A stretch of 64,000 bases of DNA, taken from contig NZ_CP100355.1 of NCBI RefSeq assembly GCF_024204665.1, positions 496,001-560,000 on the forward strand, written 5' to 3'. The DNA is from Natronosalvus rutilus. GTDB lineage: Archaea > Halobacteriota > Halobacteria > Halobacteriales > Natrialbaceae. Shown piece after piece: positions 46,744 to 50,862 of the stretch. Numbering within the stretch: position 1 is the first letter of the stretch; every line of letters starts with the position of its first letter. The translations under genes were made by a program, and so were the position numbers. The notes under the pieces were generated by a model. The model ran no database searches and was not told the origin of the DNA. It saw nothing but the letters and a program-made list of their open reading frames with translations.

Positions 46744-49182
46744 ATGAGCTATCACACGCCGACATCGATTCCAGACGTCCGGTCGATCCTCGAACGCGCA
46801 CAGCCGGCCGACGGGCCGTCGCTGCTCGCGGACGAATCGCTTCTCGACGTGATCGGTCGCTCCCTCTACGAGGAAGCGACGGTCGACGAACAATACGAGG
46901 CCGTCATCCAGGCGCTTACGGCCCGAATCGAGCGCGATCCCGCGTTCGATCGTATCGCCGGAACGGTCGCCCGACACCGATACTACCGAACCGTCCTCGG
47001 CGCGGACGTCTCCGGGGACGAATTCGACCGGGCCTATCGGGCGACGTTCGTGACCAACCTCGAGCGGGCGGTCGACGCGGGCCGTCTCGACGACCGACTG
47101 CTCGAGCGATTCGACCTCGAGGCACTCGCCGAGGCGCTCGACATCGACCGGGATGGGGATCTCGAGTACATGGCGATGGAGACGCTCGTCCAGCGGTACG
47201 TCCTTCGAATCGAACAGGAAGATGAGCCACTGGAGTTGCCACAGGCGTTCTGGATGCGAGTAGCGATGGGCCTCGCCCTCGAGGAGGACGACCCGCAGAA
47301 GCGGGCGATAGAGTTCTACGAGGTGCTCTCGAAACTCGAGTTCACGCCGTCGACGCCGACGCTCTTTCACAGCGGGACAGCCCATCCACAGCTCTCCTCG
47401 TGTTACCTGACGACCGTTCCGGACGATCTCGAGGACATCTTCGATGCCTACAAACACCACGCACAGCTCTCGAAGTGGAGCGGCGGCCTAGGCAACGACT
47501 GGACGAACGTTCGGGCCGAGGGCGCGTTGATCAAGTCGACCGGTGTCGAGTCGACCGGCGTCGTCCCCTTTCTCCGGATCAGCAACGACGTGACGGCGGC
47601 GATCAACCGCTCCGGGAAACGTCGGGGGGCGGCCTGTGCCTACCTGGCGTGCTGGCACCTCGACTTCCCCGCGTTTATCGACCTCAAGCGCAACACCGGC
47701 GACGAGCGACGGCGAACCCCGGACATGAACACGGCCGCATGGATCCCGGACCTCTTCGTTAAGCGCGTCGAGGACGGCGGCGAGTGGACCCTGTTCAGTC
47801 CCGACGAGGTGGCCGGCCTGCACGAGTGCTCGGGCACGGCGTTTGAGGAGCAATATCGAGAGTACGAGCGCTTGGCCGATGCGGGCGAACTCCGCCAGTA
47901 CGAGCGCGTCGACGCCGAGTCACTCTGGCGACAGTTGCTCACCCGCGTGTTCGAAACCGGCCATCCGTGGCTGACGTTCAAGGATCCGTGCAACGTCCGC
48001 TCGCCGCAGGACCACGTCGGGACCGTCCACTCCTCGAACCTCTGTACGGAGATCACGCTGAACACGAGCGCCGACGAACACGCCGTGTGCAACCTCGGGA
48101 GCGTCAACTTTGCGACTCACGTCGCAGACGGTGAACTCGATCGTGAACACCTCGCCTCGACGATCGAAACCGCGATGCGGATGCTCGACAACGTCGTCGA
48201 CCTGTGTTTCTACCCGACCGATGCGGCCGAGCGCTCGAACCGCCGTCATCGCCCAGTTGGCCTGGGCACGATGGGCTTTCACGACGCGCTGATGGACCTC
48301 GAGGTCCCGATAGGCAGCGAGGACGCCGTCGAGAAAGCGAACCGCTGGCAGGAGTTTGTATCGTATCACGCTATACAAAACTCCTCGAGACTCGCCGCCG
48401 AGCGAGGAACGTATCCGTCCTACGAGGGGTCGAAGTGGGACCGCGGCCTCCTGCCACAGGATACCGTGGATCGCCTCGAGGCCGAACGCGGCCGGGCGAT
48501 TCCAACTGATCGCGAGGAGACCCTCGAGTGGGAGACCGTCCGCGAGCACGTTGCCAAACACGGCATGCGAAACTCGAACACGATGGCGGTCGCGCCAACG
48601 GCGACCATCTCGACAATCAACGGGACGACGCCCTCGATCGAACCGCTGTACTCGAACCTATACGTGAAGTCGAACATGTCGGGTGACTTTACGATCGTCA
48701 ACGAACACCTGGTCGAGGACCTGCGGGAGCAGGGGTGCTGGGACGACGACCTGGTCGATCGGCTCAAGTACCACGATGGATCCGTCCAGGAAATCGACGC
48801 GGTTCCCGACGAACTCAAAGCGCTGTACCGGGGCGCGTTCGAGATCGACCCGCGCCACCAGCTTCGACTCACGGCCCACCGACAGACGTGGATCGACCAG
48901 TCGATTTCTCACAACGTCTTTTTCCCGTCGACCGACGGCACGTTGCTCGACGACGTCTACAAGACGGCCTGGGAACTGGGGCTGAAAACGACGTACTACC
49001 TGCGTACCCTCGGGGCCTCCCAAATCGAGAAGTCGACCCTCGATATGGCCGAGTACGGAAAGACCCAGCACCGTGGCGAACGAGGGGGCGGCGGGAGCGA
49101 ATCGGACCCCGGCGACGCCGACAAAGGCTCGAGAGATGACCTCCCCTCCCTCGACGATCCGACCTGCGAGGCCTGCCAGTAA
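46744..49182 (+). CDS. nrdA: Ribonucleoside-diphosphate reductase, large (alpha) subunit
   Basis: 812 residues from the ATG at 46744. Key catalytic features are present: Cys in 'HPQLSSCYLTT' and in 'EHAVCNLGSVN' (redox pair), the radical Cys and Glu in 'NLCTEITLNTS', the tyrosine pair in 'KTTYYLRTLG' and the C-terminal CEAC pair that takes electrons from thioredoxin or similar. No N-terminal ATP-cone pattern is visible. It reduces ribonucleotides for DNA synthesis. A TTTATG at 46611 may be the promoter, leaving a leader of about 100 bases. The next gene starts 16 bases after. Confidence 0.95.
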   Translation: MSYHTPTSIPDVRSILERAQPADGPSLLADESLLDVIGRSLYEEATVDEQYEAVIQALTARIERDPAFDRIAGTVARHRYYRTVLGADVSGDEFDRAYRATFVTNLERAVDAGRLDDRLLERFDLEALAEALDIDRDGDLEYMAMETLVQRYVLRIEQEDEPLELPQAFWMRVAMGLALEEDDPQKRAIEFYEVLSKLEFTPSTPTLFHSGTAHPQLSSCYLTTVPDDLEDIFDAYKHHAQLSKWSGGLGNDWTNVRAEGALIKSTGVESTGVVPFLRISNDVTAAINRSGKRRGAACAYLACWHLDFPAFIDLKRNTGDERRRTPDMNTAAWIPDLFVKRVEDGGEWTLFSPDEVAGLHECSGTAFEEQYREYERLADAGELRQYERVDAESLWRQLLTRVFETGHPWLTFKDPCNVRSPQDHVGTVHSSNLCTEITLNTSADEHAVCNLGSVNFATHVADGELDREHLASTIETAMRMLDNVVDLCFYPTDAAERSNRRHRPVGLGTMGFHDALMDLEVPIGSEDAVEKANRWQEFVSYHAIQNSSRLAAERGTYPSYEGSKWDRGLLPQDTVDRLEAERGRAIPTDREETLEWETVREHVAKHGMRNSNTMAVAPTATISTINGTTPSIEPLYSNLYVKSNMSGDFTIVNEHLVEDLREQGCWDDDLVDRLKYHDGSVQEIDAVPDELKALYRGAFEIDPRHQLRLTAHRQTWIDQSISHNVFFPSTDGTLLDDVYKTAWELGLKTTYYLRTLGASQIEKSTLDMAEYGKTQHRGERGGGGSESDPGDADKGSRDDLPSLDDPTCEACQ

Positions 49183-49198
49183 CCCGTATTCACCGCCA

Positions 49199-50194
49199 AT
49201 GACACTCATCAACACCGACAGCGAACACGACCCGAACAAGATCCTCCCCATCGAGTACGACTGGGCGCGAGCGTACTACGAAGCCGGCGTCGACAACAAC
49301 TGGGTTCCCGCCGAGATTCCGATGCAGGACGACGTCACCCAGTGGAACGGCGACGCCCTCTCCCCGGCCGAACGACAGCTCGTCGAGTGGAACCTCGGCT
49401 TCTTCTCGACGGCGGAGTCGCTCACGGCGAACAACATCGTCCTCGCGCTGTACGAGTACGTGACCGCCCCCGAGTGCCGACAGTACCTCTTGCGCCAGGC
49501 CTACGAGGAAGCGATTCACACGGACACGTTCATCTACTGCTGTGACTCGCTGGGGTTCGATCCCGAATACCTCTACGGGATGTACGACCGGATTCCCGCG
49601 ATCGAGGAGAAAGACGCCTTCGTCGTCGACCTGACCCGAGCCATCGATCGACCGACGTTTACCATCGACACCGACGGCGACCTGCGAGAATTTCTCCGGG
49701 ACCTCATCGGCTTCTACGTCATTATGGAGGGCATCTTCTTCTACGCCGGCTTCGCCATGATGCTCGGGCTCAAGCGCCAACAAAAGCTGGTCGGCGTCGG
49801 CCAGCAGTTCGAGTACATCATGCGGGACGAATCGCTCCACGTCGGCTTCGGCGTCGACCTGATCACTCAGCTTCGCCAGGAACACCCCGGCGCCTGGACC
49901 GACGATTTCGGCGAGGAGGTGATCGACCTGATCACCCGGGCCGTCGAGTTAGAGCGCGTCTACGCATATGAGGCCTGTCCCGACGAAATACTGGGTATGG
50001 GGCCTAACCAGTTCGCAACGTACGTCGAACGCGTCGCCGATCGCCGCCTCGAACAACTCGGCTTGCCGGCCCAGTACGGGGTCGAGAATCCGTTCCCGTG
50101 GCTCTCCGAGCAGGTCGATCTGAACAAGGAGAAGAACTTCTTCGAGACGCAGGTGACCGAGTACCGCAGCGGTGGCAGCCTCGAGTGGGATTAG
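49199..50194 (+). CDS. nrdB: Ribonucleotide reductase small subunit, class Ic-like
   Basis: 331 residues. Metal ligands: Glu73 in 'FFSTAESLTANN', Glu104 and His107 in 'EEAIHTDTF', then later Glu and His in helices including 'FFYAGFAMMLGLK' and 'RDESLHVGFG'. The residue where class Ia enzymes have the radical Tyr is Phe111, and the first ligand is Glu, not Asp. Both are hallmarks of class Ic (Chlamydia type), which uses a Mn/Fe cofactor instead of a tyrosyl radical. It pairs with nrdA upstream. Confidence 0.93.
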   Translation: MTLINTDSEHDPNKILPIEYDWARAYYEAGVDNNWVPAEIPMQDDVTQWNGDALSPAERQLVEWNLGFFSTAESLTANNIVLALYEYVTAPECRQYLLRQAYEEAIHTDTFIYCCDSLGFDPEYLYGMYDRIPAIEEKDAFVVDLTRAIDRPTFTIDTDGDLREFLRDLIGFYVIMEGIFFYAGFAMMLGLKRQQKLVGVGQQFEYIMRDESLHVGFGVDLITQLRQEHPGAWTDDFGEEVIDLITRAVELERVYAYEACPDEILGMGPNQFATYVERVADRRLEQLGLPAQYGVENPFPWLSEQVDLNKEKNFFETQVTEYRSGGSLEWD

Positions 50195-50404: not shown

Positions 50405-50734
50405 TCAGTCCTCCGTCCAGTACATGAGGTTCTCCTTCTTGGTGCCGCAGTTCGGACAAGTGTCGGGAAGGCCCTCGTCGATCGCTCCCATCTCGCCGCA
50501 CTCGGTACAGCGCCACATCAACTCGGCTTCGCCGAACTCGTGGCCCGAGCGGGCGTGTTCGACGCTCATCGCCTCGACGCCTTCCCGGGTCGTGACGAAG
50601 AAACCGCCGAGGTCGAATCCGCGGACGGTTCCGAGTTTCTCCCCGTCTTCGCCGTAGACGGCCTGGCCGAACTGAACCTCGTGGACCTCCTCGACGGCTT
50701 CTTCGTCGCCCTCTCTGGCCGGTGTTTCTCCCAT
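50405..50734 (-). CDS. DUF7130 rubredoxin-like zinc/iron protein
   Basis: 109 residues from the ATG at 50734 (a longer start nine codons earlier is possible). A small N-terminal beta barrel ('VQFGQAVYGEDGEKLGTVRGFD') resembles a PRC-barrel. The C terminus has two Cys pairs, CTECG and CPNCG, separated by 17 residues, as in rubredoxin-type metal sites. 'LMWRCTECGEMGAIDEGLP' is typical of the haloarchaeal DUF7130 family. Function unknown; electron transfer or RNA/protein binding are possibilities. Confidence 0.82.
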   Translation of the reverse strand: MGETPAREGDEEAVEEVHEVQFGQAVYGEDGEKLGTVRGFDLGGFFVTTREGVEAMSVEHARSGHEFGEAELMWRCTECGEMGAIDEGLPDTCPNCGTKKENLMYWTED

Positions 50735-50862
50735 GAGCGAGGCTCCCACGAGTACGGGCATAAAACTACAACGCCTACCGTCACGGCTCGCCGACGATAC
50801 GCTCCGGTCCCGAGAAACGGTCGATCGACGTATTTTTCACCGCAGACCGTTTTTGCCCGCCC

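Follow-up and report, generated by a model that had tools for sequence, protein, structure and literature searches.

The window, a stretch of 64,000 nucleotides from Natronosalvus rutilus, very probably encodes an ordinary haloarchaeal NrdB of class Ic, a ribonucleotide reductase small subunit with a predicted Mn/Fe cofactor, in an nrdA–nrdB pair. This finding holds both as an observation and as interpreted, and it has already been described for haloarchaea, since class Ic NrdB with Phe at the radical-Tyr site, including that of Natrialba magadii, was published in 2010 (PMC3019208, available part). The window gene is one more haloarchaeal class Ic enzyme. Following it up adds a likely correction, namely that the other R2 type of haloarchaea has the signatures of class Id, together with a testable pattern.

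The sequence of the window NrdB, its residue identities, its partner gene and its homology are direct observations. The nrdB frame (49199–50194, + strand) is intact from ATG to stop and encodes 331 amino acids plus the stop. Its product matches the Pfam family Ribonuc_red_sm (E 5.2e-81) and scores 509.7 bits against the NCBIfam model NF005550, for which the cut-off is 309. The closest solved chain in a phmmer search is 1syy (E 3.6e-118, 50.8% identity), which we take to be the Chlamydia trachomatis protein. Chains 1syy, 4d8f and 2ani all match at E about 1e-118 and 6y2n at E 7.5e-112; the first match after these class Ic chains, 6zjk, is far behind. In terms of kinship, the protein sides with class Ic (E about 1e-112 or better) and not with classes Ia, Ib, Id or Ie (5.5e-36, the value for 6zjk). 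Two other genomes of the genus carry intact orthologues at 96–97% identity. The sequence of 4d8f is identical to that of 4m1i, which is named class Ic in the accessible text of PMC8463856, and the chain numbering of 1syy fits the C. trachomatis (Ct) residues tabled in the portion of PMC6370689 at hand.

All six metal ligands are present on the + strand: Glu73 (49415–49417; Ct Glu89, Asp in E. coli), Glu104 and His107 (49508–49519; Ct Glu120 and His123), Glu177 (49727–49729; Ct Glu193), and Glu211 and His214 (49829–49840; Ct Glu227 and His230). This order, with Glu as first ligand and then Glu, His, Glu, Glu and His, is that of class Ic. The radical-Tyr site, which in class Ic holds Phe (or Leu or Val), is occupied by Phe111 (49529–49531, +; Ct Phe127, Tyr in E. 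coli). The phmmer alignment places Glu73 on position 89 of 1syy and Phe111 on position 127; chain 2ani has Tyr in the Phe111 column, and in E. coli NrdB the two columns read Asp and Tyr. Trp35 (49301–49303, +; Ct Trp51) presumably has a relay role, and Tyr322 in the C-terminal tail (50162–50164, +; Ct Tyr338) is presumably responsible for transfer to NrdA. The equivalents of Ct Trp51, Tyr129, Tyr222 and Tyr338, all of which we assume to act in the relay, are identical in the aligned window protein. Adjoining Glu104 and Glu211 are the second-sphere residues Glu103 (Ct Glu119) and Asp210 (Ct Asp226). Both are among the eight residues of the first and second sphere given for class Ic in the available part of PMC6370689, and all eight are present in the window NrdB.

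The first-pass annotation had proposed a class Ic-type small subunit, and the Pfam and NF005550 matches, the closeness of the class Ic chains and the eight listed residues bear this out. Its numbering of Glu73, and of Phe111 after His107, is correct. Its statement that the Glu and Phe substitutions define class Ic is sound as far as the pairing goes, given that Phe/Glu corresponds to class Ic, Tyr/Asp to Ia and Ib, and Tyr/Glu to Id (PMC8463856, available text), but Glu as first ligand is also found in class Id. The alignment with Chlamydia and E. coli NrdB that it had suggested has now been run; the radical-Tyr column is Phe in the window protein, and no radical Tyr emerged elsewhere. Its reading of a tyrosyl-radical-free class Ic enzyme is thus supported at the level of sequence, with Mn/Fe occupancy suggested by homology.

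Other R2 classes were considered and rejected for the window gene. The E. coli type, class Ia, has Tyr and Asp where this protein has Phe and Glu, and class Id has Tyr where it has Phe111. The Cyano SP type has Asp before the second ligand, according to the portion of PMC6370689 available, and Glu103 stands there in the window NrdB.

Upstream of nrdB lies nrdA (46744–49182, +), which encodes the large subunit of 812 amino acids plus the stop and ends 16 bases before the nrdB start. In an alignment that counts the window NrdA from its tenth residue, this protein keeps the equivalents of E. coli Cys225, Asn437, Cys439, Glu441, Cys462, Tyr730, Tyr731, Cys754 and Cys759. These columns are kept in all 94 class-Ic-like NrdA rows, except that Cys754 and Cys759 are found in 93 of the 94. 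The Tyr–Tyr pair is weak evidence when taken alone, because Tyr stands in both columns for a class II NrdJ as well. The gene immediately after nrdB lies on the opposite strand (50405–50761, −) and encodes a DUF7130 protein, whose zinc ribbon is rubredoxin-like.

The metals, oxidation states, electron path and activity of the window enzyme can be proposed by analogy with the solved Chlamydia homologue. In the centre formed by four Glu and two His, Mn would occupy site 1, next to Phe111, and Fe would occupy site 2. Oxidation of Mn(II)/Fe(II) by O2 would give Mn(IV)/Fe(III), with Mn(IV) replacing the tyrosyl radical as oxidant. Electron transfer may then proceed by way of Trp35, the tail residue Tyr322 and the Tyr751–Tyr752 pair of NrdA, and a thiyl radical formed on Cys434 in the NrdA active site would start ribonucleotide reduction.

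Residues alone do not fix which metals the window NrdB loads. The protein could have a class Ic sequence and yet hold another metal pair in the cell, Mn/Mn or Fe/Fe, as the class Ic scaffold is prone to mismetallation (PMC8463856, available sections). We consider this unlikely, given that the class Ic-defining residues are all conserved across the clade and that, according to the same sections, Mn together with Fe gives the Chlamydia enzyme its highest activity. In an open-access literature search, no measurements of metals, EPR or activity came up for any NrdB from haloarchaea. That the gene encodes an R2-like ligand-binding oxidase (R2lox) instead of a reductase subunit is scarcely credible. 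R2lox shares the fold family and its models do match weakly, but at 55.3 bits or less they all stay far under their respective cut-offs (194 for the best of them), whereas the score against the NrdB model greatly exceeds its threshold; moreover, the protein keeps the C-terminal tail with Tyr322, and its gene adjoins nrdA. We therefore rejected R2lox for the window gene.

Alternatively, the gene could be decaying or idle while a class II NrdJ supplies the activity. The genome (4.31 Mb, completeness 99.35) has two barrel-domain matches, the window NrdA and, at C1:2565234–2567027, a class II NrdJ; across the class Halobacteria, neither R2 type is matched at E 1e-20 in 235 of the 391 genomes. Counter to this, the frame is intact, the functional residues of both subunits are kept, and the near-identical orthologues in two congeneric genomes are intact as well. 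Decay was rejected on these grounds, and idleness appears very improbable. The window NrdB is the one Ribonuc_red_sm match in the genome and also its sole match to the second R2 type query (E 2e-18); a search for NrdD gave no match in the genome. Nothing in the window sequence contradicts the class Ic reading.

The class Ic pattern is strongly conserved among relatives. We collected 130 class-Ic-like rows from 80 loci, a further 30 loci, 19 of 20 further stretches (the remaining one holds no class-Ic-like gene) and L115, with the window's own copies excluded; 109 of the 130 are distinct over the aligned part. The Phe111 site is Phe in all 109 and the Glu73 site is Glu in 108, so the pattern is not due to chance. 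The exception, L115, is a piece of an nrdB split in two frames and lacks the Glu73 region. The Tyr206 column has Tyr in 106 and Phe in three of the distinct relatives, and the remaining checked columns have at most one deviant row each, either the L115 piece or an ambiguous letter. The gene at L115:3693–4680 (genome G332) is broken near residue 90, which may be a sequencing error or a real break. In Haladaptatus pallidirubidus, two chromosomal places (L017 and L018) have a class Ic nrdB, with frames that score equally.

In a tree of 81 class Ic sequences, 58 rows labelled Methanobacteriota and the window gene fall on one side of a single branch with support of 100/100. The nearest rows outside this haloarchaeal side are two of deltaproteobacterial type (L065 and L069), a grouping with support of only 88/87. 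Because the Chlamydia branch is very long (5.56), we name no donor for the haloarchaeal class Ic gene. A row titled Nanohaloarchaea SG9 falls within the haloarchaeal set, on a long branch that makes its place unsure.

Looking across the 391 genomes at a match threshold of E 1e-20, we found the window protein matched in 114, six of which have C-terminal remnants only (G059, G065, G114, G140, G280 and G363). A class Ic gene is thus present in 108 genomes, split across two frames in one of them, G332. For the second R2 type there were 51 matching genomes, or 50 once the cross-match of G379 to its Ic gene is set aside, and two genomes (G090 and G380) have both types. Within the window's genus, four of seven genomes have the Ic gene, one has the second type and two have neither. 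Site residues were read in fetched sequences, which are a subset of the 158 Ic and second-type genes.

Ribonuc_red_sm matches occur more widely, in 237 of the 391 genomes; 156 of the 391 have an Ic or Id gene, which leaves about 81 with weak matches only. The weak matches number up to seven per genome (G382). Inspection of 10 of the roughly 81 genomes (20 loci, L155–L174, plus one match without a locus) revealed mostly motifs like EAKHADFF and EGRHVGFG, which we take to be R2lox-like. As this inspection covers 10 of the roughly 81, other genomes of the class may still have a Tyr/Asp R2.

The second R2 type (L116–L134, for example L119:3951–4994) has as its closest solved chains 6sf4 (E 3.1e-132) and 5olk (E 1.3e-131), followed by 8dq3 and 6cwo. 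In all 19 sequences inspected, the first ligand Glu is followed by Lys four positions on (Glu+4) and by Trp seven positions on (Glu+7), the radical site holds Tyr, and the residue just before the second Glu is Ser; the combination of a Tyr radical site with a Glu ligand is that of class Id. Chain 6cwo is the class Id protein of F. johnsoniae, 6sf4 and 5olk are the class Id NrdB of L. blandensis, and NrdBi is marked by Glu, Trp and Lys (for the latter two points, PMC6754362, available part). In the portion of Lundin et al. 2010 (PMC3019208) at hand, haloarchaeal class I enzymes are divided into two groups, the first assigned to subclass Ic with Phe and the second described as having a normal tyrosyl radical. 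We provisionally equate their second group with the second type by three traits, the nrdR–nrdB–nrdA order (seen in L121), the presence of L. blandensis among the nearest neighbours and the Tyr at the site. Judging by its signatures, the second type is likely class Id, and the 2010 description of a tyrosyl radical is likely in need of correction. An open-access literature search found no published class Id reassignment of this type; in PMC10867098, as far as its accessible text extends, haloarchaea are named only in the reference list. Taken together, the class Ic and class Id signatures make both inspected haloarchaeal class I lineages look manganese-dependent and free of a tyrosyl radical.

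Some second-type loci carry a trace of replacement. Just behind nrdA in L116, L120, L121 and L130, which were picked for having this scar, is the decayed 3' third of a class Ic nrdB in two shifted frames (L116:6733–7076, L120:1746–2095, L121:2205–2548 and L130:1772–2115), with an internal stop in three of the four. A block of 3,975–5,724 bases spanning nrdB, nrdA and the scar is common to the four loci at 92–95% pairwise identity; beyond about 4 kb the flanks diverge, although L121 and L130 share more. The best intact match to the scar among the class Ic loci compared is Natrinema gari (83–85% at the DNA level), and in L121 and L130 this match extends 237 bases past the gene. Shorter class Ic traces are present in L129 and L132. 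The simplest reading of the four loci is that a class Id cassette took the place of a class Ic operon in some Natrinema-like host and then spread, carrying the scar along.

As to regulation, a search of the window NrdA for an ATP-cone gave nothing at E up to 1, the whole genome has no such match over the cut-off (best E 0.141), and no NrdR was found in the genome (best E 0.616). ATP-cones were counted in N-terminal NrdA parts from mechanical stop-to-stop frames at 75 of the 80 loci, leaving out L052 (cut frame) and L060, L067, L072 and L078 (no usable frame). Within the haloarchaeal set, which comprises 57 loci, including the row titled Nanohaloarchaea, plus the window (46744–47443), only 1 of 58 class Ic NrdA parts has a match, and a weak one (E 0.0035), whereas in other lineages 17 of 18 class Ic partners have one. 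On these counts, NrdA of the class Ic enzyme in haloarchaea seems to have lost its ATP-cone and with it the dATP-sensing switch. No ATP-cone match was found in the one second-type R2 sequence scanned; the L. blandensis NrdB carries an ATP-cone (PMC6754362, available part). NrdR lies within the retrieved stretch at 18 of 59 named class Ic loci versus 17 of 19 second-type loci, where some stretches end too early to tell.

Haloarchaea acquired class I reductase twice, in both cases from bacteria (PMC3019208, available part). We consider it somewhat more likely than not that both uptakes were of a subclass whose oxidant is a Mn-containing centre free of a tyrosyl radical (Ic and Id). If the pattern is true for all, none of the class I reductases in haloarchaea would form a stable tyrosyl radical, and neither lineage would retain an ATP-cone, which would favour selection by the haloarchaeal cell over accident. 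It is speculation that the metal pools and oxidative load of this cell are the selecting factors. With classes Ic and Id both represented, haloarchaea would offer natural swaps between Mn/Fe and Mn/Mn reductases, even within one genus, in organisms that can be grown in the laboratory.

The nearest known systems are the haloarchaeal class Ic NrdB proteins of Halobacterium, Halogeometricum, Halorhabdus and Natrialba magadii, which, as described in the available part of PMC3019208, share with the window Phe in place of the radical Tyr and the nrdA–nrdB order. Their hosts, like the window genome, have a class II NrdJ besides class Ic. An nrdR–nrdA–nrdB arrangement is reported there for three of five hosts, in contrast to the window genome, where no nrdR was found; apart from this, comparison by description showed no difference. 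The R2c of Chlamydia trachomatis (1syy, 4d8f/4m1i) is matched by the window NrdB in its six ligands, Phe127, Trp51, Tyr129, Tyr222, Asp226 and Tyr338. The two differ in about half of their residues, as given above, and in that metals have been measured in the Chlamydia protein whereas the window protein is known from sequence. The class Id NrdB proteins of L. blandensis (6sf4/5olk) and F. johnsoniae (6cwo) have Glu as first ligand, as does the window NrdB, but differ from it in Tyr at the radical site, Lys at Glu+4 and Trp at Glu+7. They are kin of the second haloarchaeal R2 type and not of the window gene.
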